Shown in pieces: positions 1,681-14,411 of a stretch of DNA of 14,411 nucleotides. Location of the stretch: contig CAMOXW010000253.1 of assembly GCA_946629405.1 (NCBI GenBank), positions 1 to 14,411 of the forward strand, read 5' to 3'. The notes beneath the pieces are model-generated. The model had not been told where the DNA came from. It saw nothing but the letters and a program-made list of their open reading frames with translations, and ran no database searches. The stretch is from an uncultured Ruminococcus sp. (GTDB lineage: Bacteria; Bacillota_A; Clostridia; Oscillospirales; Ruminococcaceae). Position numbers and translations under genes: made by a program. Each line of letters begins with the position of its first letter. The stretch's first letter is position 1.

Positions 1681-3390
1681 ATGAATATCAGATTCAGAAA
1701 AAAGGCATCGGTGCTCGCAGCAGCTGTTCTCGCAGCGACTCAGCTGACTTTCATGCAGCCGGCAGCAGTATTTGCTCAGGGCACTGAATATATCACAGCA
1801 GTCTCCGCATCAAATGAAGCTATAACGCTCTGCGGAGGCTGGTTCGAGGCGGCTTATGCTGAATGGGACAGCAGCATTATCGGTCAGAACATCAGCGTAA
1901 GCTATGCAGAAGCTGGCAGCAGCGACTTTACGGCTGTTGACACCGAGCTTATAAGAGGCGAAAGAGTTGATATTCCCGGCTTGAAGGGCAATACGTCCTA
2001 CACACTTAGAATAACCGGTGACAATGGTTCTGCTGAGTGCAGTGTGAGAACATCCGCGTTTGATCGTACAGGCTACGCTCATTATAATTTTGAGGGAATC
2101 GGCGCTTACAATGACGACGGTACGCTCAAACCAGATATCACGGTTATTTACGTCACCAACGAGAACAAGGACACTATTACCTACAACGGCAAGGTGGGAC
2201 TTTACAACATATTTTTCAGTGCCAAGCCCAAGAACGTTCTGTTCAGATTTGTGGGCAGACTGGACGTCCCTGCCGGAACTGTCCCCAACGACGGAAGTCA
2301 TAACGATGGCTCCAATATGCTTTATCTCCAGAACAGCTCAAATGTGACTATTGAAGGTATCGGCGACGATACGGATCTTATCGAGTGGGGCATCGAGATG
2401 AAGCGCTGCACAAGTTGTGAGGTCCGCAATCTGTGGCTGGGAAATTACCCTGACGACGGTATTTCTATGACCGGTAACATCGATATCCGCTCAGAGCATA
2501 TCTGGGTGCATAACAATACTATCGAGAAAGGATATAACGCCTTTGCGGGCGGAGGTCACGTTGATGCTGACAAGGCGGAGGGCGATGGTTCGGTTGATAT
2601 GAAGTGGTCAAACTATGTTACTGTTTCTTACAATGAATTCAGGGAATGCCACAAAACTTCTCTCGTTGGCGGACGTGCTGATCAGATACAGGACTTCATA
2701 ACCTACCACCATAACTGGTTTAACAATACCCAGTCAAGAAATCCCCGCGTGAGAAATGCTCATATCCATTCATTCAACAACTATTTTTCTCAGAACGGCG
2801 AGTATGGCATATGTGCGTCCTATAACTCAAAGATATTCTCCGAGTCCAACTATTTTGAAAATTCCAATTCGCCACTATATGCCATAAATATGGGCAAGGA
2901 TCAGTATTCCGGCACTATCAAGTCCTACAACGACAAGTTCGTAGACTGTGCTCCTGATGAGGGACTTGCATACAGGATCATCGACAGTCGCAGTGATGCT
3001 CCCCGGATTGCAAACCTCATTGAGGGCGGTGATGACTATGATAACTTTGATCTCGATATTTACAGCTATACCGCTCAGTCACCCGATGAGGCTAAAGAGA
3101 GCGTTTTGCAATATGCAGGACGTATGAGGTGCGAAAACAGCGGGAAATCCGAGCCTGTTATCGAACCTGTCACAGAGCCGGCATCTGAACCTTCGGTCAC
3201 TGCCGGAGACGTAAACGGTGACGGCGAATTCGGCGTTGCAGACCTGGTGCTGTTCCAGAAATGGCTGCTTGCATATCCTGATGCAGTTATCTCAGACTGG
3301 AATTCTGCCGACCTGTGCAAGGACGATAAGCTCAACGTGTTCGACCTTTGCGTTATGCGAAAAATGCTTGTAAACACTGTTAACGGCTGA
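1681..3390 (+). CDS. Secreted PL1 pectate lyase with FN3-like domain and dockerin
   Basis: This predicted extracellular lyase would cleave polygalacturonate by calcium-dependent beta-elimination and attach to a cellulosome. Residues 1-32 are a signal peptide (basic start, Ala/Leu core, likely cut after AVFA). Residues 35-124 resemble a fibronectin III domain. Residues 130-460 are the PL1 parallel beta-helix. The hallmark series is present: DGSVD (302-306, calcium-site acid), VTVSYNEF, HKTSLVGG (Lys325), ITYHHNWF and SRNPRVR (Arg353 the likely catalytic base, Arg358 beside it), followed by HSFNNYF. A Glu/Pro-rich linker around 490-503 leads to the dockerin at 508-568, with loops DVNGDGEFG and DLCKDDKLN; the latter again has Cys at position 3. 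The start is set by the AAAGGGGG Shine-Dalgarno. Family assignment is firm; whether it prefers methylated or unmethylated pectin cannot be read. Confidence 0.94.
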   Translation: MNIRFRKKASVLAAAVLAATQLTFMQPAAVFAQGTEYITAVSASNEAITLCGGWFEAAYAEWDSSIIGQNISVSYAEAGSSDFTAVDTELIRGERVDIPGLKGNTSYTLRITGDNGSAECSVRTSAFDRTGYAHYNFEGIGAYNDDGTLKPDITVIYVTNENKDTITYNGKVGLYNIFFSAKPKNVLFRFVGRLDVPAGTVPNDGSHNDGSNMLYLQNSSNVTIEGIGDDTDLIEWGIEMKRCTSCEVRNLWLGNYPDDGISMTGNIDIRSEHIWVHNNTIEKGYNAFAGGGHVDADKAEGDGSVDMKWSNYVTVSYNEFRECHKTSLVGGRADQIQDFITYHHNWFNNTQSRNPRVRNAHIHSFNNYFSQNGEYGICASYNSKIFSESNYFENSNSPLYAINMGKDQYSGTIKSYNDKFVDCAPDEGLAYRIIDSRSDAPRIANLIEGGDDYDNFDLDIYSYTAQSPDEAKESVLQYAGRMRCENSGKSEPVIEPVTEPASEPSVTAGDVNGDGEFGVADLVLFQKWLLAYPDAVISDWNSADLCKDDKLNVFDLCVMRKMLVNTVNG

Positions 3391-3746: not shown

Positions 3747-6700
3747 ATGAAGAAGATTCTTTCGGCAGCTATTGCTGCTGTGACCGCAGCTTCAGCTTTC
3801 AGTATTACGATCCCGGAGACCGCAATTGCTGAGAACCCTGTTGTACAGACTTCTTTTACGCCTGACCCTGCTCCTGTTGTGTTCGGGGATGAGCTTTATG
3901 TTTTCACAGGCTGCGACCGTGACGGCGACAACGATTTCTACAAAATGACCGGCTGGCAGTGTTTCTCTACAAAGGATATGAAGAACTGGACTGACCACGG
4001 CAGGATACTGGAGGATACCTCTTTTTCATGGTGCGGTGCAAACGATGCCTGGGCTTCACAGTGCATCGAGCGCAACGGCAGGTATTACTTCTACTTCACC
4101 ACAACAAACAAGTCCGGCGGCGGAAGAGCCATAGGCGTTGCTGTGGCTGACAGCCCGGAGGGACCCTACAAGGACGTTCTCGGAAAGCCCCTCTGCGGTC
4201 CTAACTGGAACTACATCGACCCGACCGTTATGATCGACGATGACGGTCAGGCGTGGCTGATGTTTGGCAATCCGACCTGCTATTACGTCAAGCTGAAGGA
4301 CGATATGATAACACTTGACGGCGAGATAAAGTCATTCGATATGACAGAGCAGGCGTTTGGTCCGCATACAGCTGCAAATTCCGATGACAAAAGGACCTGC
4401 GCTTACGGCGAGGGTCCGTGGATATGCAAGCATGATAACCTTTACTACCTTGTCTATGCGGCTTTTGTCGGGAAGGATTCCGGAGAGAGCATGGCTTATG
4501 CGACAGGTCCGTCGCCGACCGGTCCGTGGACCTACCGCGGACAGATACAAAAGGGCTCAAACTGCTATACCATTCACGGCGGCATTGTCGATTACAAGGA
4601 TCATTCGTACTACTTCTACCACATGAACGGTATTCCCGGCGGAGGCGTTTTCAACCGCAGTGCGGCGTGCGAGGAGTTCACATTTAACTCGGACGGCTCA
4701 ATACCGAATCTTCCATCCACAAGCTCCGGTCCTGAACAACTCGAGGCGCTTGACCCGTTTGTAAGAGTTGAGGCTGAAACTATCTGCTGGTGTGAGGGCG
4801 TAAAGACTGAGAAATGCAGCGAGGGCGGCTTGAACATCGGAAATATCGGTGACGGAAGCTATATCAAGGTCAGCGGAGTTGACTTCGGAGAGGGCGCTGA
4901 CAAGTTCACTGCAAGTGTTGCTTCTGCGAGCAATGGCGGAAATATAGAGATACATCTTGATTCCAAAACAGGTCCGGTAGTCGGTTTATGCAGGGTCTCC
5001 GGAACAGGCGGATGGCAGAGCTGGGAGGAGGTCTCGTGCGATGTTTCAGGTGCAAACGGTGAGCATGACCTTTACTTCGTGTTCAAGGGCTCCGATACCT
5101 ATCTGCTGAACGTTGACTGGTGGAAGTTCAGCGGACCCGGCGGCGCTTCCTCCGGAGACAGCACCTACTTCTTCCGTAATGGCTTTGAAAACAGTACGGA
5201 CGGCTGGTCCGGCAGAGGCGCGGCGAAGGTATCATATACTTCGGATGAGTCCTATGCAGGAGGTTCATCAGCCTTTGTTTCAGGAAGAACGGCTTCATGG
5301 AACGGTATAGGCAAAAATCTTGGCTATAAATTCAAGGCGGGCGAAAGCTACAGCTTCTCAGCAAACGTGAAATATTCCTCCGGTGAGCCGACAAATACCT
5401 TCCACTTCACTCTCCAGTACAACGATGCGAACGGCGAACCAGTGTACAAGAAGATCGACACTAAGACCGTTCCAAAGGGCGAATGGACACAGCTATCCAA
5501 CACAGGCTTCACTATCCCAGAAGGCGCGAAGAATTGCTATATCTATGTCGAGACAGAGGGCGACGATGGAATTGACTTCTATGTCGACGATATCGCAGCA
5601 GCAGTCAGCGGAACGGTCATAGCCGGAGCAGGTTCCCCTGATGTTTCGGTGATACCGGGTGACCTCAACTTCGATGGAATTATAAACGTATTTGATATGA
5701 TCATCGCCAGAAAGACCTACGTCAGCAAGTTTTCGACCGGCATAAACGACAAGAAGCTGCTGAAGGCTGCAGATGTTGACGGAAACGGTGACTATACGAT
5801 CGCCGATATGGTGCAGATAGCAAACTTCCTTCTTGGAAGATCAAAGAAATTCGAGGAGACTGCTTCTAAGACAACTACGTCTGCGACCACAACTACTACC
5901 ATTACTACAACCACAGGTAAAACTCCCAACGGTAACTATATGGACACTATTTCAAATGATATGCAGATCAATGCCCCGGACAGCTTTTTCAACAGCCGCA
6001 GCGGTGTTGACTATGGTAAGTCCGAGGTCGTAAAGTATTTCTCTGAGGACGGAAACTGCGAAAAAAGCATGACAGTCATTCTTCCTCCCGGATATAGCGA
6101 AAACGAGAAGTATCCCGTGCTCTATGTCCTGCACGGCATTGGCGGAGATCACAATTCAATGCCGCGGATGGGAGTACAGACGATGCTCGGCAATCTTATT
6201 GCGGACGGCAAGTCTGAAAAAATGATAATCGTCTGCCCGTCTATGCTCACAGGACAGGGCAATCCCATGGCGTTCAACCAGGAGACAATGCGTATGTATG
6301 ACCTCATCCGCGAGGATATCGAAAACAGCATCATGCCCTATATGGAGCAGCATTATTCAATTAAGACAGGCAGGGAAAACACTGCGATAACCGGCTTTTC
6401 CCTCGGAGGCAGGGAGGCACTCTACTGCGGTATCACTCATTCGCAGAATTACGGCTACGTCGGAAGCGCCTGTGCCGCTCCCGGTATCTTCCCGACTGTA
6501 GATACCTTCATGACGCATGAGGGTTCCCTCAAACAGGAAAGCGAATTCAAGCCCTCTGTAATGCCCGAAATGATACTTATTTCCGCAGCACAGAACGACG
6601 GTGTTGTAGGCACTTATCCTGAGAGCTATCATAATGCTCTCACTGGCAATGGTGTTCAGCACCTATGGCAGATCATTCCTCAGGGTGATCACGGCAATGA

Positions 6701-6755
6701 AACTGTAAAGCCGCATATGTACAACTTCCTGAGATATGTTTTCAAGGCGGAATGA
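3747..6755 (+). CDS. Bifunctional GH43-CBM6-CBM22-dockerin-CE1 hemicellulase/esterase
   Basis: A secreted 1002-residue enzyme, probably active on decorated arabinoxylan. The signal peptide is 1-28 (cut after AIA). GH43 spans about 32-325 with all three acids visible: Asp40 in PDPAPV, Asp158 in YIDPTV and Glu222 in GEGPW. The type suggests an alpha-L-arabinofuranosidase or beta-xylosidase. CBM6 follows at 338-462 (FVRVEAE to NVDWWKF). A CBM22-like sandwich lies at 474-618 (ENSTDGWSGRG to DFYVDDI). An internal dockerin occupies 637-700, a Thr-rich linker 706-728, and a CE1 alpha/beta-hydrolase 745-1002 with triad Ser885 (GFSLGG), Asp951 (QNDG) and His982 (GDHG). CE1 members remove ferulate or acetate from xylan; which one cannot be told here. 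The dockerin repeats are in swapped order compared with the neighbouring dockerins: the NVFD-type segment comes first. The gene is monocistronic, with its own promoter and terminator. Confidence 0.93.
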   Translation: MKKILSAAIAAVTAASAFSITIPETAIAENPVVQTSFTPDPAPVVFGDELYVFTGCDRDGDNDFYKMTGWQCFSTKDMKNWTDHGRILEDTSFSWCGANDAWASQCIERNGRYYFYFTTTNKSGGGRAIGVAVADSPEGPYKDVLGKPLCGPNWNYIDPTVMIDDDGQAWLMFGNPTCYYVKLKDDMITLDGEIKSFDMTEQAFGPHTAANSDDKRTCAYGEGPWICKHDNLYYLVYAAFVGKDSGESMAYATGPSPTGPWTYRGQIQKGSNCYTIHGGIVDYKDHSYYFYHMNGIPGGGVFNRSAACEEFTFNSDGSIPNLPSTSSGPEQLEALDPFVRVEAETICWCEGVKTEKCSEGGLNIGNIGDGSYIKVSGVDFGEGADKFTASVASASNGGNIEIHLDSKTGPVVGLCRVSGTGGWQSWEEVSCDVSGANGEHDLYFVFKGSDTYLLNVDWWKFSGPGGASSGDSTYFFRNGFENSTDGWSGRGAAKVSYTSDESYAGGSSAFVSGRTASWNGIGKNLGYKFKAGESYSFSANVKYSSGEPTNTFHFTLQYNDANGEPVYKKIDTKTVPKGEWTQLSNTGFTIPEGAKNCYIYVETEGDDGIDFYVDDIAAAVSGTVIAGAGSPDVSVIPGDLNFDGIINVFDMIIARKTYVSKFSTGINDKKLLKAADVDGNGDYTIADMVQIANFLLGRSKKFEETASKTTTSATTTTTITTTTGKTPNGNYMDTISNDMQINAPDSFFNSRSGVDYGKSEVVKYFSEDGNCEKSMTVILPPGYSENEKYPVLYVLHGIGGDHNSMPRMGVQTMLGNLIADGKSEKMIIVCPSMLTGQGNPMAFNQETMRMYDLIREDIENSIMPYMEQHYSIKTGRENTAITGFSLGGREALYCGITHSQNYGYVGSACAAPGIFPTVDTFMTHEGSLKQESEFKPSVMPEMILISAAQNDGVVGTYPESYHNALTGNGVQHLWQIIPQGDHGNETVKPHMYNFLRYVFKAE

Positions 6756-7862: not shown

Positions 7863-7891
7863 TTGACACGATGTCAGAATAGTGCTATAAT
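7863..7891 (+). promoter_or_regulatory. Consensus promoter of the tetR-AKR-flavodoxin operon
   Basis: TTGACA (7863-7868), 17 bases ending in TGC, and TATAAT (7886-7891) make a perfect extended -10 SigA promoter. Transcription should start near 7898. The RBS AAAGGAGG lies at 7920-7927. Confidence 0.88.
7864..7876. promoter_or_regulatory. TetR operator 1 (overlaps the -35 box)
   Basis: TGACA-CGA-TGTCA is a perfect 5-bp dyad followed by GAA. It shares bases with the -35 hexamer and spacer, so binding would block RNA polymerase. Confidence 0.72.
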
Positions 7892-7934: not shown

Positions 7935-8555
7935 ATGCCAAAGGGTTCCCCAGAACTGACCGCTTCACGCCGTGAGGAGATCGTGAAAGCCTGCGAAAAA
8001 CTTTATCAGACCATGAGCTTCAAGGACATCACCCTCAAAGAGATAAGCGTGGAGACAAGCTTCTCAAGAACTTCAATTTATAACTATTTTCAGACGAAGG
8101 AGGAGATCTTCCTCGCCCTGATGCAGCGTGAATATGAGCTCTGGGCGGCTGAGCTGAACTCTATTTCTGAGGAAAATACTGCAATGACTGCTGATGAGTT
8201 TTCATCCGCGCTTGCTCACTCTCTTGAAAAACGACAGCAGCTTTTGAAACTGCTTGCTATGAATCACTATGATATGGAGGAGCATTCCAGACCGGAGAGG
8301 CTGACGGAGTTCAAGGTCGCATATGGTGCATCTCTTGATGCGATGAGGGGGTGTGTAAGGAAATTCTTCCCGGACACGGACTGCGAGAGCTTTATATTCG
8401 TATTCTTTCCGCTGTTGTTCGGCGTTTATCCGTATGCTGTGGCAACGCAGAAGCAGCTTGATGCTATGCGCGAGGCAAAGCTCGACTTTCAGATGCACAG
8501 CATTTATGATATTGTATTTTCCTGTGCAATGCAGTTGTTAGGAGGGAAAAGATGA
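7935..8555 (+). CDS. TetR/AcrR-family transcriptional regulator
   Basis: This 206-residue cytoplasmic repressor has the TetR N-terminal DNA-binding helices at about 12-58: ITLKEISVETSFSRTSIYNYFQ contains the helix-turn-helix, and the FQTKEEIF tail is characteristic. Residues 60-206 are an all-helical ligand-binding half with no recognisable specificity; the ligand is unknown. It is the first gene of the operon. Its stop overlaps the next start as ATGA at 8552-8555, so it is translationally coupled to the first reductase. The two flanking dyads indicate that it represses its own promoter and hence all five genes. The start is supported by AAAGGAGG seven bases upstream. Confidence 0.93.
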   Translation: MPKGSPELTASRREEIVKACEKLYQTMSFKDITLKEISVETSFSRTSIYNYFQTKEEIFLALMQREYELWAAELNSISEENTAMTADEFSSALAHSLEKRQQLLKLLAMNHYDMEEHSRPERLTEFKVAYGASLDAMRGCVRKFFPDTDCESFIFVFFPLLFGVYPYAVATQKQLDAMREAKLDFQMHSIYDIVFSCAMQLLGGKR

Positions 8556-9589
8556 AGTATACTAAACTTGGAAATTCAGACCTGAACGTTTCACGGATCT
8601 GTATGGGATGTATGGGGTTCGGCGATCCACAGAACGGTCAGCATTCATGGACGATAGACGAGGAACATTCCCGTGAGATAGTAAGGCGTGGGCTTGAGCT
8701 CGGAGTGAATTTCTATGATACGGCGATCGCCTATCAGTCGGGTACGAGCGAACAGTATGTCGGCAGAGCTCTGCGTGACTTTGCAAAGCGTGACGAGGTG
8801 ATAGTCGCTACAAAATTCCTGCCGAGAACTCCTGCTGATATCGAAGCGAGGATAAAAGGTCAGCAGCATATTGAGCGCATGATAAACAAAAGCCTTGAAA
8901 ACCTCGGAATGGACTATGTTGACCTGTATATATACCATATGTGGGACTGGAATACGCCGGTCTATGATATCCTGGACGGTCTGAACAGAGTTGTCAAAGC
9001 CGGAAAAGCACGTTATATCGGTATTTCCAATTGCTATGCGTGGCAGCTTGCAAAGGCTAATGCTCTTGCTGAAAAAGAGGGATTTCCGAGGTTCGTGAGC
9101 GTTCAGGGACATTATAATCTTATCTTCCGTGAGGAGGAACGTGAAATGACTATGCTCTGCGCGGAGGACAACATTGCATTGACCCCATACAGCGCCCTTG
9201 CAAGCGGCAGACTTTCCCGGCTTCCCGGTGAAACTTCAAAGCGTGCCGAGGAGGACAGCTACGCTAAATTCAAATACGATGCTACCAAAGATCAGGACGA
9301 GGTCATTATATGGAGAGTTGCGGAGATCGCCGCAAAACGCGGGCTCTCCATGTCAGAGGTATCACTTGCGTGGCTGCTCACAAAGGTCACATCACCCGTG
9401 GTCGGAGCAACTAAGCTTCACCATATCGAGGAAGCTGCAAGTGCGGTCGATGTCGAGCTGACTGCCGGGGAGATCGCGTATCTTGAAGAACCTTATGTAC
9501 CTCATGCTCTCGCAGGTGTAATGGCGCAGAATAAGCCGGCAAATAAGAATGAAAAGCACGTCTGGTCAACAGGCTCGCAGAAAATATAG
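8552..9589 (+). CDS. Aldo/keto reductase (345 aa)
   Basis: NAD(P)H-dependent oxidoreductase with the (beta/alpha)8 aldo-keto reductase fold, predicted cytoplasmic. The tetrad is visible: Asp56 and Tyr61 (NFYDTAIAY), Lys88 (VATKF) and His129 (YIYHMWD). Motifs YIGISNCYAWQ, VSVQGHYNLI and LTPYSALASGRLSR are those of the longer AKR group that includes E. coli YajO-like and Kvbeta-like enzymes. SPVVGATKLHHIEEA is the C-terminal cofactor-phosphate loop. The substrate is not predictable. The gene overlaps tetR by four bases and has AGGAGGG at 8540-8546. It lies 15 bases before a second reductase of a different subgroup, which argues against simple gene duplication. Confidence 0.93.
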   Translation: MKYTKLGNSDLNVSRICMGCMGFGDPQNGQHSWTIDEEHSREIVRRGLELGVNFYDTAIAYQSGTSEQYVGRALRDFAKRDEVIVATKFLPRTPADIEARIKGQQHIERMINKSLENLGMDYVDLYIYHMWDWNTPVYDILDGLNRVVKAGKARYIGISNCYAWQLAKANALAEKEGFPRFVSVQGHYNLIFREEEREMTMLCAEDNIALTPYSALASGRLSRLPGETSKRAEEDSYAKFKYDATKDQDEVIIWRVAEIAAKRGLSMSEVSLAWLLTKVTSPVVGATKLHHIEEAASAVDVELTAGEIAYLEEPYVPHALAGVMAQNKPANKNEKHVWSTGSQKI

Positions 9590-9604: not shown

Positions 9605-10468
9605 ATGTATGACAAGATGCTCACATTATCAAACGGGGTGAAGATCCCGCAGCTTGCGCTCGGTACATGGCTGATAGATGACAGCTTGGTATCAGCCGCA
9701 GTAAAATCTGCCATTGCGCTCGGCTACCGTCATATCGACACTGCTCAGGCTTACGGCAATGAGCGCGGCGTAGGCGAAGGAGTGCGTGAAAGCGGTATCG
9801 CCCGAAAGGATATTTTCGTGACTTCAAAGGTCGCTGCTGAGCATAAGGACTACAAGTCCGCAGCGGCAGGTATTGACGAAACGCTTTTCAGGACTGGTCT
9901 GGACTACCTCGATATGATGATAATACACAGCCCTCAGCCGTGGGCGCTCGTTAATCAGTCCGACGACCGCTTTACCGAGGGCAACCGTGAAGCGTGGAGG
10001 GCTCTGGAGGACGCATACAGGGCTGGAAAGCTTCTTGCGATAGGTGTTTCCAACTTCCTTGAGGGGGATATTGAAAGTCTTTGGGAAACGGCTGAGATAA
10101 AGCCTATGGTCAATCAGGTGCTTTGCCATATTTCAAATTCTCCGCTTGCACTTATCGACTACTGCACGAAAAAAGGCATCGTAATGGAGGCATATTCTCC
10201 CGTTGCACACGGTGAAGCACTGAAGAATCCTGTGATCGCGGAAACGGCGAGAAAGTACGGAGTTACCGCGGCACAGCTCTGCATAAGATTTGACATTCAG
10301 CTCGGCATGATCGTTCTGCCGAAAACTGCAAATCCAGAGCATATGAAAAACAATGCGGACATTGATTTTGTCATCTCGGACGAGGATATGGATATGCTTA
10401 AAAACATCGACCATATCGAAAACTATGGCGCACACAGTTTCTTCCCGGTATTTGGCGGAAAGCTGTAA
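9605..10468 (+). CDS. Aldo/keto reductase, diketogluconate-reductase type (287 aa)
   Basis: A shorter AKR of the group containing 2,5-diketo-D-gluconate reductases and prostaglandin-F-synthase-like proteins, predicted cytoplasmic and NADPH-dependent. The catalytic tetrad is Asp45 and Tyr50 (HIDTAQAYGNE), Lys75 (VTSKV) and His108 (IIHSPQPW). GKLLAIGVSNF and MEAYSPVAHGE are family signatures; VLPKTANPEHMKNN is the phosphate-binding loop. AGGAGGT at 9591-9597 is among the strongest ribosome-binding sites here. It sits between the first reductase (15-base gap) and the dockerin-flavodoxin gene (11-base gap), so cotranscription is very likely. Physiological substrate unknown. Confidence 0.93.
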   Translation: MYDKMLTLSNGVKIPQLALGTWLIDDSLVSAAVKSAIALGYRHIDTAQAYGNERGVGEGVRESGIARKDIFVTSKVAAEHKDYKSAAAGIDETLFRTGLDYLDMMIIHSPQPWALVNQSDDRFTEGNREAWRALEDAYRAGKLLAIGVSNFLEGDIESLWETAEIKPMVNQVLCHISNSPLALIDYCTKKGIVMEAYSPVAHGEALKNPVIAETARKYGVTAAQLCIRFDIQLGMIVLPKTANPEHMKNNADIDFVISDEDMDMLKNIDHIENYGAHSFFPVFGGKL

Positions 10469-10479
10469 GGAGTGAGGCA

Positions 10480-11604
10480 ATGAAAAAGCTTTTGTCAGTT
10501 CTCATTGCAGGTATCACAGTTTCCTCCGGCGCAGGCTTTCGTGCTGATGAGCCGGAGCAGGCGGATGCCGTTTCTGCTGCGACTGAAAGCATTGTCTATA
10601 CCATCGGGGATGTACAGGAACTGCAGGATTATCTTCTTGGGAGACCGACGGAAACTGACCTGACCGGCAGGCAATATGATCTTAACAGTGACGGCAGGTG
10701 GGACGTTTTCGACCTGTGCCTGATGAGGCGAAGGGTAATGGAAAATCCCTCGGAAACTCCGTCTGACGATACGATCGTTGTGTATTTCTCACGCACAGGT
10801 AATACTGAAAAGATAGCGGAATATCTCATCGACCTGACTGGTGCGGACAGCTATGTGATCGAGGCTGCTGTTCCATATACTGATGAGGATATTGCCTATA
10901 ACAATTCGTCCTGCCGTGCAAATCAGGAGCAGAATGACAAGTCAGTGCGCCCTGAGATAGCTGATCCGATAAGCTCTCTTGACAGCTATGATACGGTATT
11001 CCTCGGCTATCCGATCTGGTGGGGACAGGAACCGCGCATCATCGACACATTTCTTGAAAGCTATGACCTCTCTGAAAAAACGGTAATCCCGTTCTGCACC
11101 TCTGCAAGCAGCGGTATATCCACAAGTGAGAAGAATATCGCAGCCCTTGTACCGATCGGGGAGCAGCTCGCTGGAAAACGTTTTGCTGTATCCGCATCAA
11201 AGGACGATGTTGCTGCATGGTATGAGTCACTTCCTTTGAAAAAAGCTGAGCAGAAGCTCCAGATCACGGTCGGTGATAACGTCCTGACTGCCTCACTTGC
11301 TGAAAATTCCTCGGCACAGGCGTTTGCTGAGCTGCTGAAAAAAGGCAGCATCACGGTCGATATGCACGACTACGGCAGCTTTGAAAAGGTAGGGGAGCTC
11401 CCCGAAACCTTGCCACGCTGCGATGAGAGGATAACAACTGAACCGGGCGATATCATCCTGTATCTCGGCAATAATATCACGATCTATTACGATGTCAATA
11501 CATGGGATTTCACAAAACTCGGTCACATTGACAACATCACACAGGACACGCTGAAGAACATTCTCGGCGACGGAAATGTCAGTGTTACGTTTTCATTAAA
11601 ATAA
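10480..11604 (+). CDS. Secreted dockerin-flavodoxin-cyclophilin-like fusion protein
   Basis: A 374-residue protein with a signal peptide (1 to about 22, MKK then a Leu/Ile/Val core) lacking any lipobox Cys. Residues 38-88 are a dockerin-like pair: the first helix YTIGDVQELQDYLLG survives without its calcium loop, while the second is intact (DLNSDGRWDVFDLCLMRRR, Asp67 to Asp75). Residues 98-245 are a flavodoxin: IVVYFSRTGNTEKIAEYL is the FMN phosphate loop and FLGYPIWWGQEP a conserved loop near the flavin. Residues 258-374 resemble the cyclophilin-like domain that often follows such flavodoxins. It would be an exported FMN protein, perhaps a quinone or NAD(P)H-linked reductase, docked on a cellulosome. 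The electron donor outside the cell is unknown. The RBS AAGGAG overlaps the upstream TAA. Related flavodoxins are often lipoproteins (family knowledge), so the dockerin may replace that anchor (inference). Confidence 0.88.
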   Translation: MKKLLSVLIAGITVSSGAGFRADEPEQADAVSAATESIVYTIGDVQELQDYLLGRPTETDLTGRQYDLNSDGRWDVFDLCLMRRRVMENPSETPSDDTIVVYFSRTGNTEKIAEYLIDLTGADSYVIEAAVPYTDEDIAYNNSSCRANQEQNDKSVRPEIADPISSLDSYDTVFLGYPIWWGQEPRIIDTFLESYDLSEKTVIPFCTSASSGISTSEKNIAALVPIGEQLAGKRFAVSASKDDVAAWYESLPLKKAEQKLQITVGDNVLTASLAENSSAQAFAELLKKGSITVDMHDYGSFEKVGELPETLPRCDERITTEPGDIILYLGNNITIYYDVNTWDFTKLGHIDNITQDTLKNILGDGNVSVTFSLK

Positions 11605-11617
11605 CGGAGGTTTTATC

Positions 11618-12373
11618 ATGAGCGAAAAAATAGTACAGACAGCAGGCAGAGATCAGCTCGGAGAGTTTGCACCGGTGTTCGCACATCTCAATGATGATGT
11701 GCTGTTCGGTGAGGTGTGGAATGAGCAGGCGATAGATGTAAAGACTAAGTGCATTATCACGGTCGTTTCCCTTATGGCTTCTGGGATCACTGACAGCTCG
11801 CTTGCGTATCATTTGCAGAATGCAAAGTCTCACGGCGTTACCAAAGAGGAGATAGCTGCTGTAATCACACACGCCACCATGTATGTCGGCTGGCCGAAGG
11901 GCTGGGCGGTGTTCCGGCTTGCAAAGGAGGTATGGAACGAGGAGGCGCCTGCGATGACTGACAAGGACAGGTATCAGAACACGCTGTTCTTCCCGATAGG
12001 CGAGCCGAATCCTTACGGAAAATTCTTTGTGGGGCAGAGCTACCTTGCTGCTGTTTCGACTGAACAGGTGCCTGTTTTCAATGTTACATTCGAGCCTGCC
12101 TGCCGCAATAACTGGCATATCCACCACGCCAGGACCGGCGGCGGCCAGATGCTTATATGTGTCGGAGGCAGAGGCTACTATCAGGAGTGGGGCGGGGAGG
12201 CAAGAGAGCTTCACCCGGGCGATGTGGTCAATATCCCCGCAAATGTCAAGCACTGGCATGGTGCTGCGCCTGATTCATGGTTCTCACACCTTGCACTTGA
12301 GATACAGGGCGAGGACGGCAGCACTGAATGGTGCGAGGCTGTTTCGGATGAGGATTACGGCAAGCTGAAATAA
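11618..12373 (+). CDS. Carboxymuconolactone decarboxylase-like/cupin fusion protein
   Basis: A 251-residue protein with two domains and no signal peptide. Residues 15-110 are an AhpD/CMD helical domain (KTKCIITVVSLMASG, NAKSHGVTKEEIAAVITHATMYVGWP). The CxxC pair of AhpD peroxidases is absent; only Cys45 and His65 remain nearby, so thiol peroxidase activity is unlikely. Residues 135-235 are a cupin barrel with likely metal ligands His167/His169/His170, Gln177 and His212 (WHIHHARTGGGQ, HPGDVVNIPANVKHWHG). Such CMD-cupin fusions commonly lie beside aldo/keto reductases and flavodoxins in gut Firmicutes, recalled as a pattern and not searched here. The reaction is unassigned; a decarboxylase, isomerase or dioxygenase-like role on a small cyclic substrate is possible. 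Last gene of the operon, with GGAGG at 11606-11610 and a terminator right after. Confidence 0.9.
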   Translation: MSEKIVQTAGRDQLGEFAPVFAHLNDDVLFGEVWNEQAIDVKTKCIITVVSLMASGITDSSLAYHLQNAKSHGVTKEEIAAVITHATMYVGWPKGWAVFRLAKEVWNEEAPAMTDKDRYQNTLFFPIGEPNPYGKFFVGQSYLAAVSTEQVPVFNVTFEPACRNNWHIHHARTGGGQMLICVGGRGYYQEWGGEARELHPGDVVNIPANVKHWHGAAPDSWFSHLALEIQGEDGSTEWCEAVSDEDYGKLK

Positions 12374-13220: not shown

Positions 13221-13781
13221 ATGGGATTATTCGATAATATTAAAAAAGCCGTCGGAGCGCCGGCCGGCGGAAGCAGCACATCTTCAAACAAGTGCGTTGA
13301 CGTAGTTTTTCCGAAGCTTCCTGAAACTCTGGAGGACTTCAAGGCTCTCCCGCAGGCACAGCTCACCTCGCCGTTTGACACGGCAGCGCTGACTGTTCTT
13401 GCATTCTGTTTCTATCCTCAGAACAAAGAGCTTTCACTCGATATGCTCAATTTCCTCCGCGGTCCGCGCCCGCTGAGCGGCTACGACCTTCAGTTCATAC
13501 GCGACCGCTTTATGGATAAGGACTATGTTCCGCGTTCTTATTTCGTCGGAGCGACACCTGCCAACGATTATCTGCCATCTGAGCCGTATACTATAAAGGT
13601 CACTGAGAATCCCTACAGCTATGCTGAGGAGAATTATGCCAAGCTTTTTATGTCCTCAGGCGGTGCTGACAGTCCCCGATATGTTCAGCTCCGTAAGGCT
13701 AAGGACGGCAAGTGGTACCTCTGGGAGCAGTTCATCCTCTCAGACATAAGACCGCCCGAGAGCACTGACCCGTGGGCATGA
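13221..13781 (+). CDS. Conserved protein of unknown function, DUF6935-like
   Basis: A 186-residue protein, predicted cytoplasmic, with no signal or membrane helix. It begins with a short amphipathic segment (MGLFDNIKKAVG) and a Gly/Ser linker, then a compact conserved domain at about 40-186. Distinctive strings are ALPQAQLTSPFDTAALTVLA, LSLDMLNFLRGPRPLSGYD, FMDKDYVPRSYFVGATP, YTIKVTENPYSY, and KWYLWEQFILSDIRPPES near the end. These match my recollection of DUF6935, common in gut Firmicutes, whose function is unknown. The amphipathic start resembles phage-shock or tellurite-type small proteins, but nothing else supports that. It has its own strong promoter. Its terminator lies inside the convergent kinase gene, whose stop is one base away. 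Confidence 0.85.
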   Translation: MGLFDNIKKAVGAPAGGSSTSSNKCVDVVFPKLPETLEDFKALPQAQLTSPFDTAALTVLAFCFYPQNKELSLDMLNFLRGPRPLSGYDLQFIRDRFMDKDYVPRSYFVGATPANDYLPSEPYTIKVTENPYSYAEENYAKLFMSSGGADSPRYVQLRKAKDGKWYLWEQFILSDIRPPESTDPWA

Positions 13782-13782
13782 T

Positions 13783-14411
13783 CTATAAGCGTTTTTCCGG
13801 CAGACTTACCGTGACGGTGAGCCTGCCGTTTTTGTATGCCGCGGAGATACTTCCGCCTATGCGTTCGGTCAGCGTGCGGGCGATAGAAAGTCCGAGACCG
13901 GTCGAATTGTTCGCAGTATTTACTGTGTAGAAACGGTCGAACAGCCTGCCGATGTCTATGCCGGAAAGCTCGGGTGAGGCATTTGAAAAGGCGATATTTC
14001 CCTCAGTATCGAGCGATATCTCAAGATCGCCTGCGCTGTATTTCATTGCGTTGTTCATAAGATTTGACAGCACACGCGAAAGGCTCTCACGGTCGGTTTT
14101 TCGCATTATCTTTTCCTCAGGCATACTGATCTGCGGGACTATGCCACGAGAGTTCAGTGAGCCGTAATAGCCGAGTATGCAGCTTTCAAGCACCTCGTTC
14201 AGCGAAAGCTCCTCCGTGTTGAGTGCAGTGTCCGAGGGTATCACGGAATACTGAAGCAGCTCGTCAGTGAGCTGCTTCATCGCATCGGTGCGCTCACTGA
14301 TTATGTCAAGGCAATGCTCTATACGCTCCGGCTTGTCAAGCGGCTTCATCATTTCAAGGTAACCGCATATCGCCGTCATTGGAGTGTGGAGGTCGTGGGA
14401 AATATTCGTGA
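13783..14411 (-). CDS. Sensor histidine kinase, C-terminal part (5' truncated)
   Basis: The C-terminal catalytic region of a two-component kinase that runs off the right edge. The H-box ISHDLHTPMTAICGYLEM spans 14403-14350, with the phosphoacceptor His codon at 14397-14395. It is followed by the second dimerisation helix. The ATPase domain shows the N box (LSNLMNNAMKYS), the F box (LFDRFYTVN) and the G2 box (STGLGLSIARTL). The usual DxGxG box is replaced by NASPELSGID, a form seen in a known kinase subgroup with poor G1 boxes. The sensor and membrane segments and any cognate response regulator are outside the window, so the signal is unknown. Met at 14379 is within the H-box and is not the start. 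Confidence 0.92.
   Translation of the reverse strand, partial: TNISHDLHTPMTAICGYLEMMKPLDKPERIEHCLDIISERTDAMKQLTDELLQYSVIPSDTALNTEELSLNEVLESCILGYYGSLNSRGIVPQISMPEEKIMRKTDRESLSRVLSNLMNNAMKYSAGDLEISLDTEGNIAFSNASPELSGIDIGRLFDRFYTVNTANNSTGLGLSIARTLTERIGGSISAAYKNGRLTVTVSLPEKRL
13798..13833 (+). terminator. Plus-strand terminator inside the kinase 3' end
   Basis: CGGCAG/CTGCCG plus an inner CTTACC/GGTGAG stem (12 pairs, one mismatch, one G-T) encloses GTGAC and is followed by TTTTT (13829-13833). It begins 17 bases after the DUF6935-like stop and overlaps codons for the last residues of the antisense kinase. Confidence 0.75.

Follow-up and report, generated by a model that had tools for sequence, protein, structure and literature searches.

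The window, the whole 14,411-nucleotide stretch of uncultured Ruminococcus DNA analysed here, holds at 10480..11604 a gene whose product, as its sequence indicates, is an exported flavodoxin fitted with a dockerin-fold module and a cyclophilin-like domain. The module is a half-dockerin, retaining one calcium loop of two, and comparison of its copies marks it as a class of its own, common to exported aldo/keto reductases (AKRs) and other proteins. We think that this group-6-like half-dockerin may well dock the exported flavodoxin, with FMN as its probable cofactor, on a type-I-like (ScaC-type) cohesin at the cellulosome or the membrane, in what we regard as an evenly balanced case. The first-pass annotation had proposed an exported dockerin-flavodoxin in a cellulosomal context, and this context is upheld by the dockerin-bearing enzymes encoded in adjoining genes and by the cohesins of relatives. 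The gene and its parts are as follows.

10480..11604, + strand: gene for the exported half-dockerin/Flavodoxin_4/cyclophilin-like protein, 374 aa (open reading frame, Pfam, AAGGAG upstream)
10480..10587, + strand: Sec-type signal sequence and spacer, residues 1-36, without a lipobox Cys (by eye; pLDDT below 50)
10579..10743, + strand: half-dockerin, residues 34-88, comprising helix 1, one calcium loop and helix 3 (PF00404, AF2, Foldseek/VIA, dN/dS)
10678..10713, + strand: the single calcium loop, residues 67-78 (DLNSDGRWDVFD), with the signature residues Trp74 and Phe77 (family copies)
10774..11229, + strand: Flavodoxin_4 domain, residues 99-250 (PF12682, 150 bits, cut-off 24)
10789-10806, + strand: phosphate loop SRTGNT, residues 104-109 (sequence)
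11263..11595, + strand: cyclophilin-like domain, residues 262-372 (PF18050, Cyclophil_like2, 81.7 bits, cut-off 22.7)

Reading from an ATG with AAGGAG ahead of it, the frame encodes a signal-like N-terminus without a lipobox, the dockerin-type module, the Flavodoxin_4 domain and the cyclophilin-like domain, in that order. By eye, the N-terminus has Lys-Lys followed by a hydrophobic stretch, and inspection finds no lipobox Cys, there being no Cys ahead of residue 80; the signal peptide lacking a lipobox that had been called earlier is retained. The whole-protein model has a pLDDT of 83.7 and a pTM of 0.50, with residues 1-36 (pLDDT below 50 throughout) and 89-95 disordered. Among the matches listed, 119 relatives share 66-81% identity over 91-100% of the length of the window protein. 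The nearest genome locus (L001, from a MAG of Ruminococcus sp., genome G006) is 79% identical, and the window itself comes from a rumen-type Ruminococcus genome.

The flavodoxin with an FMN phosphate loop and the cyclophilin-like domain, both named at the outset, are borne out by the Pfam scores and the SRTGNT loop listed above, and the identity of the former as Flavodoxin_4 with FMN-type loops is clear from the sequence. Its model matches the FMN-bound Bacteroides flavoprotein 3klb with a TM-score of 0.88 on the target; sequence search finds 3klb as well (E 2e-34), and the window loops align with those of that protein. The Bacteroides proteins 3klb (with FMN), 4ici and 4j8p, titled putative flavoproteins, have fold and loops in common with the window domain at 38-41% identity, but their chains are only ~160 residues long. 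A simple two-loop FMN-type pattern fits 66 of the 81 Flavodoxin_4-bearing half-dockerin ORFs. The score against Flavodoxin PRK07116 (NF005501) was 178.6 bits, below the NCBIfam cut-off of 198. The modelled C-terminal domain matches the fold of the atypical cyclophilin TM1367 (1zx8), a likeness from which isomerase activity is putative at most.

Residues 38-88 had been read as a dockerin. Structure prediction shows them to be dockerin-like, and the claim stands for a dockerin-type module; it fails for a normal dockerin, as there is only one calcium loop. The alignment to Dockerin_1 (PF00404) starts at profile position 12, positions 1-11 being unmatched here and likewise in relatives; both helices and the second calcium loop are kept and the first loop is absent, so that of the two calcium loops of a type I dockerin the window module has the second only. 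The same half form is seen in the module-bearing relatives displayed, one of which (L013) ends at a contig edge. PF00404 scores 21.3 on the whole protein and 25.2 on the isolated segment, against a curated Pfam cut-off of 22.9, and in seven of nine full-length relatives scanned it fell below the cut-off or gave no match at E 0.1, implying that annotation can overlook the half-dockerin. The AF2 model is a confident two-helix fold, well predicted as a monomer without a partner and with helices 1 and 3 of the type I dockerin fold. Dockerins are its top-ranked structural matches (Foldseek, VIA), with scores that are modest because the module is very short.

Column identity averages 66% in an alignment of 32 half-dockerin copies. 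Helix 1 has the form [FY]x[IV]xD followed by a Q..LL stretch. Counted over 125 distinct family copies (seven ORFs were unparsed), loop positions 2 and 6 are Asp in 123 and 118 copies, at places where the parsing pattern allowed few letters; position 9 is Trp in 113, position 11 is Val or Ile in 98, position 12 is Phe or Tyr in 120, and position 18 of the retained repeat is Lys or Arg in all 125. When parsing made no demand for Asp at position 13, this residue still stood there in 108 of 109 copies. At the matching place in full dockerins of the same loci, Trp occurs in none of 31 first loops and none of 20 parsed second loops. One module profile was seeded with a pattern that required the Trp, a mild bias; an earlier profile, seeded with the window's full dockerins and run for three iterations, recovered flavodoxin-borne half-dockerins too.

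We infer that the loop Trp is a plug filling the space left by the lost first loop. Single EF-hands often pair, and the same residue, found in most half-dockerins and not seen in full dockerins, could form a surface for pairing as readily as a plug: the half-dockerin would then be a structural or oligomerising module that binds no cohesin, with calcium-loop dimers joining the flavodoxin and AKR proteins. Such pairing is weakened by the monomer being well predicted alone, and the Trp could merely fill the lost-loop gap; other evidence on it comes from the parent proteins of the module.

Could the half-dockerin instead be vestigial, the functionless leftover of a gene fusion? The missing first loop and the seven relatives whose Pfam scores fall short would fit such an origin. 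Substitution rates argue against it. In pairwise Nei-Gojobori comparisons (up to 150 pairs from 35 sequences, of which 134 were usable for the half-dockerin, 126 for the cyclophilin-like domain, 76 for the spacer and 88 for the linker), median dN/dS was 0.07 for the flavodoxin, 0.12 for both the half-dockerin and the cyclophilin-like domain, 0.49 for signal and spacer and 0.63 for the linker, values to be used for their ranking only because the pairs are non-independent and many dS are near saturation. These coding-sequence comparisons indicate that the half-dockerin is under purifying selection as strong as that on the cyclophilin-like domain. With this constraint (0.12 against 0.49 in the spacer), the conserved calcium ligands, the new family-wide Trp and the presence of the module on many unrelated parents, we consider a vestigial dockerin highly improbable.

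The module profile separates half-dockerins, at 50 bits or more, from full dockerins, at 43 bits or less (235 loci), with a gap that is not absolute, one copy from the genome of the nearest relative falling inside it at 45 bits. Among 140 non-redundant half-dockerin ORFs, some of them cut by locus ends, 81 carry Flavodoxin_4, 23 an AKR and 8 both, counts that are biased because some loci were fetched by the flavodoxin and others were chosen partly for different parents; for loci fetched through the module itself (L109 and later), the parent is a flavodoxin or AKR in 53 of 90. Other parents are S9-like hydrolases (9), GH11-like proteins (7), esterase/BD-FAE proteins (7) and CotH (6), the remainder comprising DUF362, DUF2271, beta-helix, cyclophilin-like only and unclassified fragments. 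These classes were assigned by similarity to Pfam-named representatives, and three of the eight dual-domain ORFs were checked by Pfam. The module lies in the first 130 residues in 111 of the 140 and at the C-terminus in 12. A pattern for the AKR active site, built from the AKR tetrad, fits 21 of the 23 AKRs, the misses being one truncated and one variant sequence.

In some loci the partners share one chain. Lipoproteins made of half-dockerin, Flavodoxin_4, cyclophilin-like domain and AKR are encoded at L209:1286-3292, L229:3164-5131, L019:159-2162 and L233:773-2776 (L209 and L229 Pfam-checked; lipoboxes by eye), and proteins with a lipobox, cyclophilin-like domain, half-dockerin and AKR at L139:2523-4085, L140:1206-2768, L213:4360-5877 and L154:2338-3855. 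These last, lipobox-bearing AKRs sit outside the cytoplasm, where NADPH is unexpected. Fusion in one chain suggests that flavodoxin and AKR probably work together, and the best hint that they do so is that they are operon neighbours in the window and one polypeptide elsewhere. The fusions, and the many half-dockerin parents that are lipoproteins, are also compatible with pairing through the calcium loops. Half-dockerins are also borne by the GH11-like proteins L157:1911-4466, L145:1849-5118 and L146:3589-6870, in which no full dockerin was found (L157 and L145 by Pfam scan, L146 by similarity only). The half-dockerin is internal in L145 and L146; in L157 it is C-terminal, the usual dockerin place, and is the only dockerin-type module found, which speaks for docking and against pairing. 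The VF...M(R/K) docking motif is moreover kept. We regard the pairing explanation as somewhat unlikely.

Several further arrangements were seen. Half-dockerin DUF362 lipoproteins are encoded at L050:4897-6129, L153:598-1809 (both by Pfam) and L239:2053-3363 (by eye). At L044:9914-11875 a half-dockerin flavodoxin is joined with an FGE-sulfatase (formylglycine-generating-enzyme-like) domain and with the beginning of another flavodoxin, and at L034:2586-3755 the order is altered to cyclophilin-like domain, half-dockerin, flavodoxin. A second lipoprotein flavodoxin, without a half-dockerin, lies right behind the half-dockerin one at L005:4890-5612, L006:11141-11866 and L021:3508-4233. The half-dockerin AKR and flavodoxin/SnoaL-type ORFs of FD-1 are interrupted or cut at contig ends (L141:3378-4214, L142:4909-5124), compatible with both draft assembly and decay.

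To which cohesin might the half-dockerin bind? R. flavefaciens dockerins of groups 3 and 6 are reported to bind ScaC, and those of groups 2 and 4 surface cohesins (PMC5301203, PMC2930009). On binding, a large side chain of the former, in most cases Phe, enters a hydrophobic pocket in the ScaC cohesin (PMC5429695). The Val-Phe...Lys/Arg pattern of the retained half-dockerin repeat is also present in the first repeat of the ScaC-bound dockerin 5lxv (DGEVDVFDLILMRK), which the half-dockerin matches over 25 residues (E 0.005) with the Phe and the VFDLxLM(R/K) pattern kept; with the PL1 dockerin of the window it aligns at 31% over 48 residues. Proteins with one cohesin and terminal dockerin-like repeats, which we take from their sequences as ScaC-like, were seen in five of the six genomes that we inspected, that of L001 among them; in the FD-1 example Pfam detects the cohesin only, the dockerin repeat being seen separately. 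Half-dockerins have been termed functional (PMC8063739). Docking on a type-I-like cohesin, for instance the one in the adaptor scaffoldin ScaC, is therefore our best guess, since the Phe/VFDLxLM(R/K) pattern is kept, half-dockerins can function and ScaC-like proteins are present in relatives. The module may have arisen from a group-6-like dockerin by loss of the first calcium loop, with the second loop and both helices retained, and would then have come to tag exported oxidoreductases (flavodoxins, AKRs and single-chain fusions) and some cell-wall enzymes.

The likeness to groups 6 and 3 is incomplete. Val-Phe at positions 11-12, the M(R/K) motif and the kind of helix 1 are common to both, but the half-dockerin differs in the missing first loop, the loop Trp, the lack of a c1 Trp, the many oxidoreductase parents and its mainly near-N-terminal position. 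At helix 1 positions that we take to be exposed, it has Gln, Glu and Asp, as against Val, Leu/Met and Lys in the group-6-like dockerins of the window. This alteration speaks against ScaC docking if both dockerin helices take part in ScaC recognition, as is reported (PMC5429695). Group 6 dockerins are described as having conserved Phe in b1 and b2 and Trp in c1 and d (PMC2930009); the half-dockerins have an aromatic residue (Tyr or Phe) in b1 and Phe in b2, but c1 Trp in none of 140 copies (four unparsed), and the window copy has no Trp between helix 1 and the calcium loop. The absence of the c1 Trp from all parsed copies also counts against ScaC docking.

A surface cohesin, or some cohesin other than ScaC, is the alternative partner, in which case the redox proteins would be held at the envelope, away from the fibre-bound complex. 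ScaE and ScaH, both surface cohesins, are partners of the R. flavefaciens group 2 half-dockerins (PMC5301203), and the lipobox-bearing members of the present class sit at the membrane. Most FD-1-genus genomes have several cohesin matches, which would offer such partners; at least one is found in 124 of 125, so common that cohesin presence discriminates nothing, and co-occurrence was discarded as a test of docking. Like the group 2 modules, known to us by description only, the half-dockerin has a single calcium loop. Those modules are described, however, as C-terminal, as keeping the first repeat only and as similar to group 4 (PMC2930009, PMC5301203), specifically to its C-terminal half, with Gly-Arg as the recognition pair in some group 4 members (PMC5301203). 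The window module is N-terminal, keeps the second repeat and belongs to a class with mostly Val-Phe, the ScaC-type pair. We think a surface or other cohesin an unlikely partner, and return to ScaC-type docking as the preferred reading; on it, the docked redox protein would be carried by the cellulosome or, in relatives with a lipobox, lie close to the membrane.

Relatives of this flavodoxin had been described as often lipoproteins, with the dockerin suggested as a replacement anchor. Lipoprotein relatives are indeed common, but replacement does not hold generally. A flavodoxin tree from a quick search (79 rows, 24 of 103 having been dropped as cytosolic flavodoxins or fragments; lipoboxes by pattern, with seven rows labelled by hand and six of them changed) contains 23 half-dockerin proteins with a plain signal, 21 with half-dockerin and lipobox, and 35 with a lipobox and no half-dockerin. 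Nearly half of the half-dockerin flavodoxins (21 of 44) thus have both features, and the half-dockerin as a replacement anchor is rejected as a rule. The tree requires at least seven changes for the module and six for the lipobox within it, counts that are soft because 33 of 76 inner branches are open and some branches are long. A likely course, for which the tree is no proof, begins with an ancestral lipoprotein flavodoxin that had TetR, AKR or CMD/cupin genes nearby; in the Ruminococcus line it would have acquired the module, and repeated loss of the lipobox would have followed. The lipobox in 21 of 44 fits oddly with release to the cellulosome.

The gene lies within a putative operon, with spacings of 4-base overlaps or 11-15-base gaps.

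7863..7891, + strand: perfect sigma-70-type promoter match TTGACA-17-TATAAT before the operon (consensus match only)
7935..8555, + strand: TetR-type regulator, first in the putative operon (PF00440/PF17929)
8552..9589, + strand: aldo/keto reductase, no signal sequence seen by eye (PF00248, 227 bits)
9605..10468, + strand: second aldo/keto reductase, DkgA-like, no signal sequence seen by eye (profile matches)
11618..12373, + strand: carboxymuconolactone decarboxylase-like (CMD) and cupin protein, last in the putative operon (PF02627, PF07883)

The sigma-70-type consensus search gave 14 sites against 7.8 expected. By eye, none of the other four operon proteins has a signal sequence, and the window AKRs look cytosolic, as far as sequence can tell; the DkgA-like AKR shares 32-36% identity with the AKR portions of four proteins encoded elsewhere that combine a half-dockerin and an AKR. 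Three genes upstream of the operon, for a GH43, a pectate lyase and a GH43-CBM-esterase, all encode proteins with a dockerin match, and luxS follows them. In the adjoining dockerins of 1681-3390 and 3747-6755 the order of repeats is reversed, by eye: that of the PL1 protein has the NVFD repeat second (group 6-like) and that of the GH43-esterase has it first (group 3-like). Downstream, a DUF6935 protein (Pfam; 13221-13781, + strand) is convergent with a partial histidine-kinase-like protein (by eye; 13783-14409, - strand).

TetR-type and CMD/cupin genes adjoin the flavodoxins of relatives at some loci. At least one of TetR, AKR and CMD/cupin lies within 6 kb at 24 of 40 half-dockerin loci and at 25 of 36 other flavodoxin loci, many being cut by contig ends; with such similar company the neighbourhood is not tied to the half-dockerin, and the operon was dropped as a discriminator for the module. 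The Clostridia lipoprotein flavodoxins without a half-dockerin (35 of the 79 tree rows), seen for example in Pseudobutyrivibrio and Oribacterium, have the same domain, are exported and often lie near TetR, AKR or CMD/cupin genes.

As far as sampled, the half-dockerin class is confined to Ruminococcus (the FD-1 genus) and near family genera. Of 125 genomes of that genus, at least 95 have a match at E 1e-10 and at least 71 at E 1e-15, our threshold for a half-dockerin call; these are lower bounds because candidates were only partly scored in many genomes. The FD-1 genome itself has six matches at E 1e-15. In 197 sampled family genomes there are eight matches at 1e-10, three of them (G001, G031, G033) also in the genus sample and five outside it, including the genome of L001; that in G233 (48 bits) may be a full dockerin. 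Two of 295 order genomes and one of 299 phylum genomes have matches, all in the FD-1 genus. The same dockerin-flavodoxin order, which the first-pass annotation had suggested seeking in Ruminococcus genomes, was found there, including R. flavefaciens strains not labelled MAG.

What would such a protein do? Reactive carbonyls, quinones or phenolics are suggested as targets by the operon, by the AKR and CMD/cupin proteins found alongside and by the BD-FAE proteins, presumably feruloyl-esterase-type, among half-dockerin parents elsewhere. The flavodoxin and its AKR partner might reduce reactive plant or fermentation compounds such as quinones, aldehydes and phenolics; no feature in the analysis points to lignin in particular. 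The extracellular supply of FMN and NAD(P)H is a gap in the docking explanation. More broadly, and more tentatively, it is possible that Ruminococcus runs an extracytoplasmic redox arm in which exported flavodoxins, NAD(P)H-type AKRs and their fusions are held on ScaC-type cohesins by a Trp-stabilised half-dockerin, with electron transfer on or beside the cellulosome.

Dockerins, half-dockerins, Flavodoxin_4 and AKRs are already known kinds. Within our literature search, what is new is the half-dockerin class itself, the Trp that marks it and its attachment to exported flavodoxins and AKRs, although a published list of 222 dockerins may contain some of the ORFs. Titles and abstract openings on dockerins with flavodoxin, oxidoreductase or redox/flavin, on half-dockerins, and on lipoprotein flavodoxins and the operon genes gave no description of the protein or module, and nothing was found on dockerins with aldo keto reductase. 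A term search for 'flavodox' in the text of the extracellular proteome of strain 007 (PMC3672088) gave no occurrence, which tells against the docking explanation. In its passage on the matter, a 2025 review goes no further than that redox enzymes 'may contribute' (PMC12484212).

Cellulosome models comprise hydrolases, lyases, esterases, proteases and scaffolds. The half-dockerin on a set of exported reductases suggests an undescribed redox side of the fibre-digesting surface, and a conserved module on exported flavodoxins and AKRs would supply named redox proteins that can be tested in strains of R. flavefaciens. In addition, it would establish half-dockerins with a single calcium site as stable docking units in wide use and of value for designer cellulosomes. 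It raises the question of how electrons are fed to flavin and nicotinamide enzymes outside the membrane of an anaerobe.
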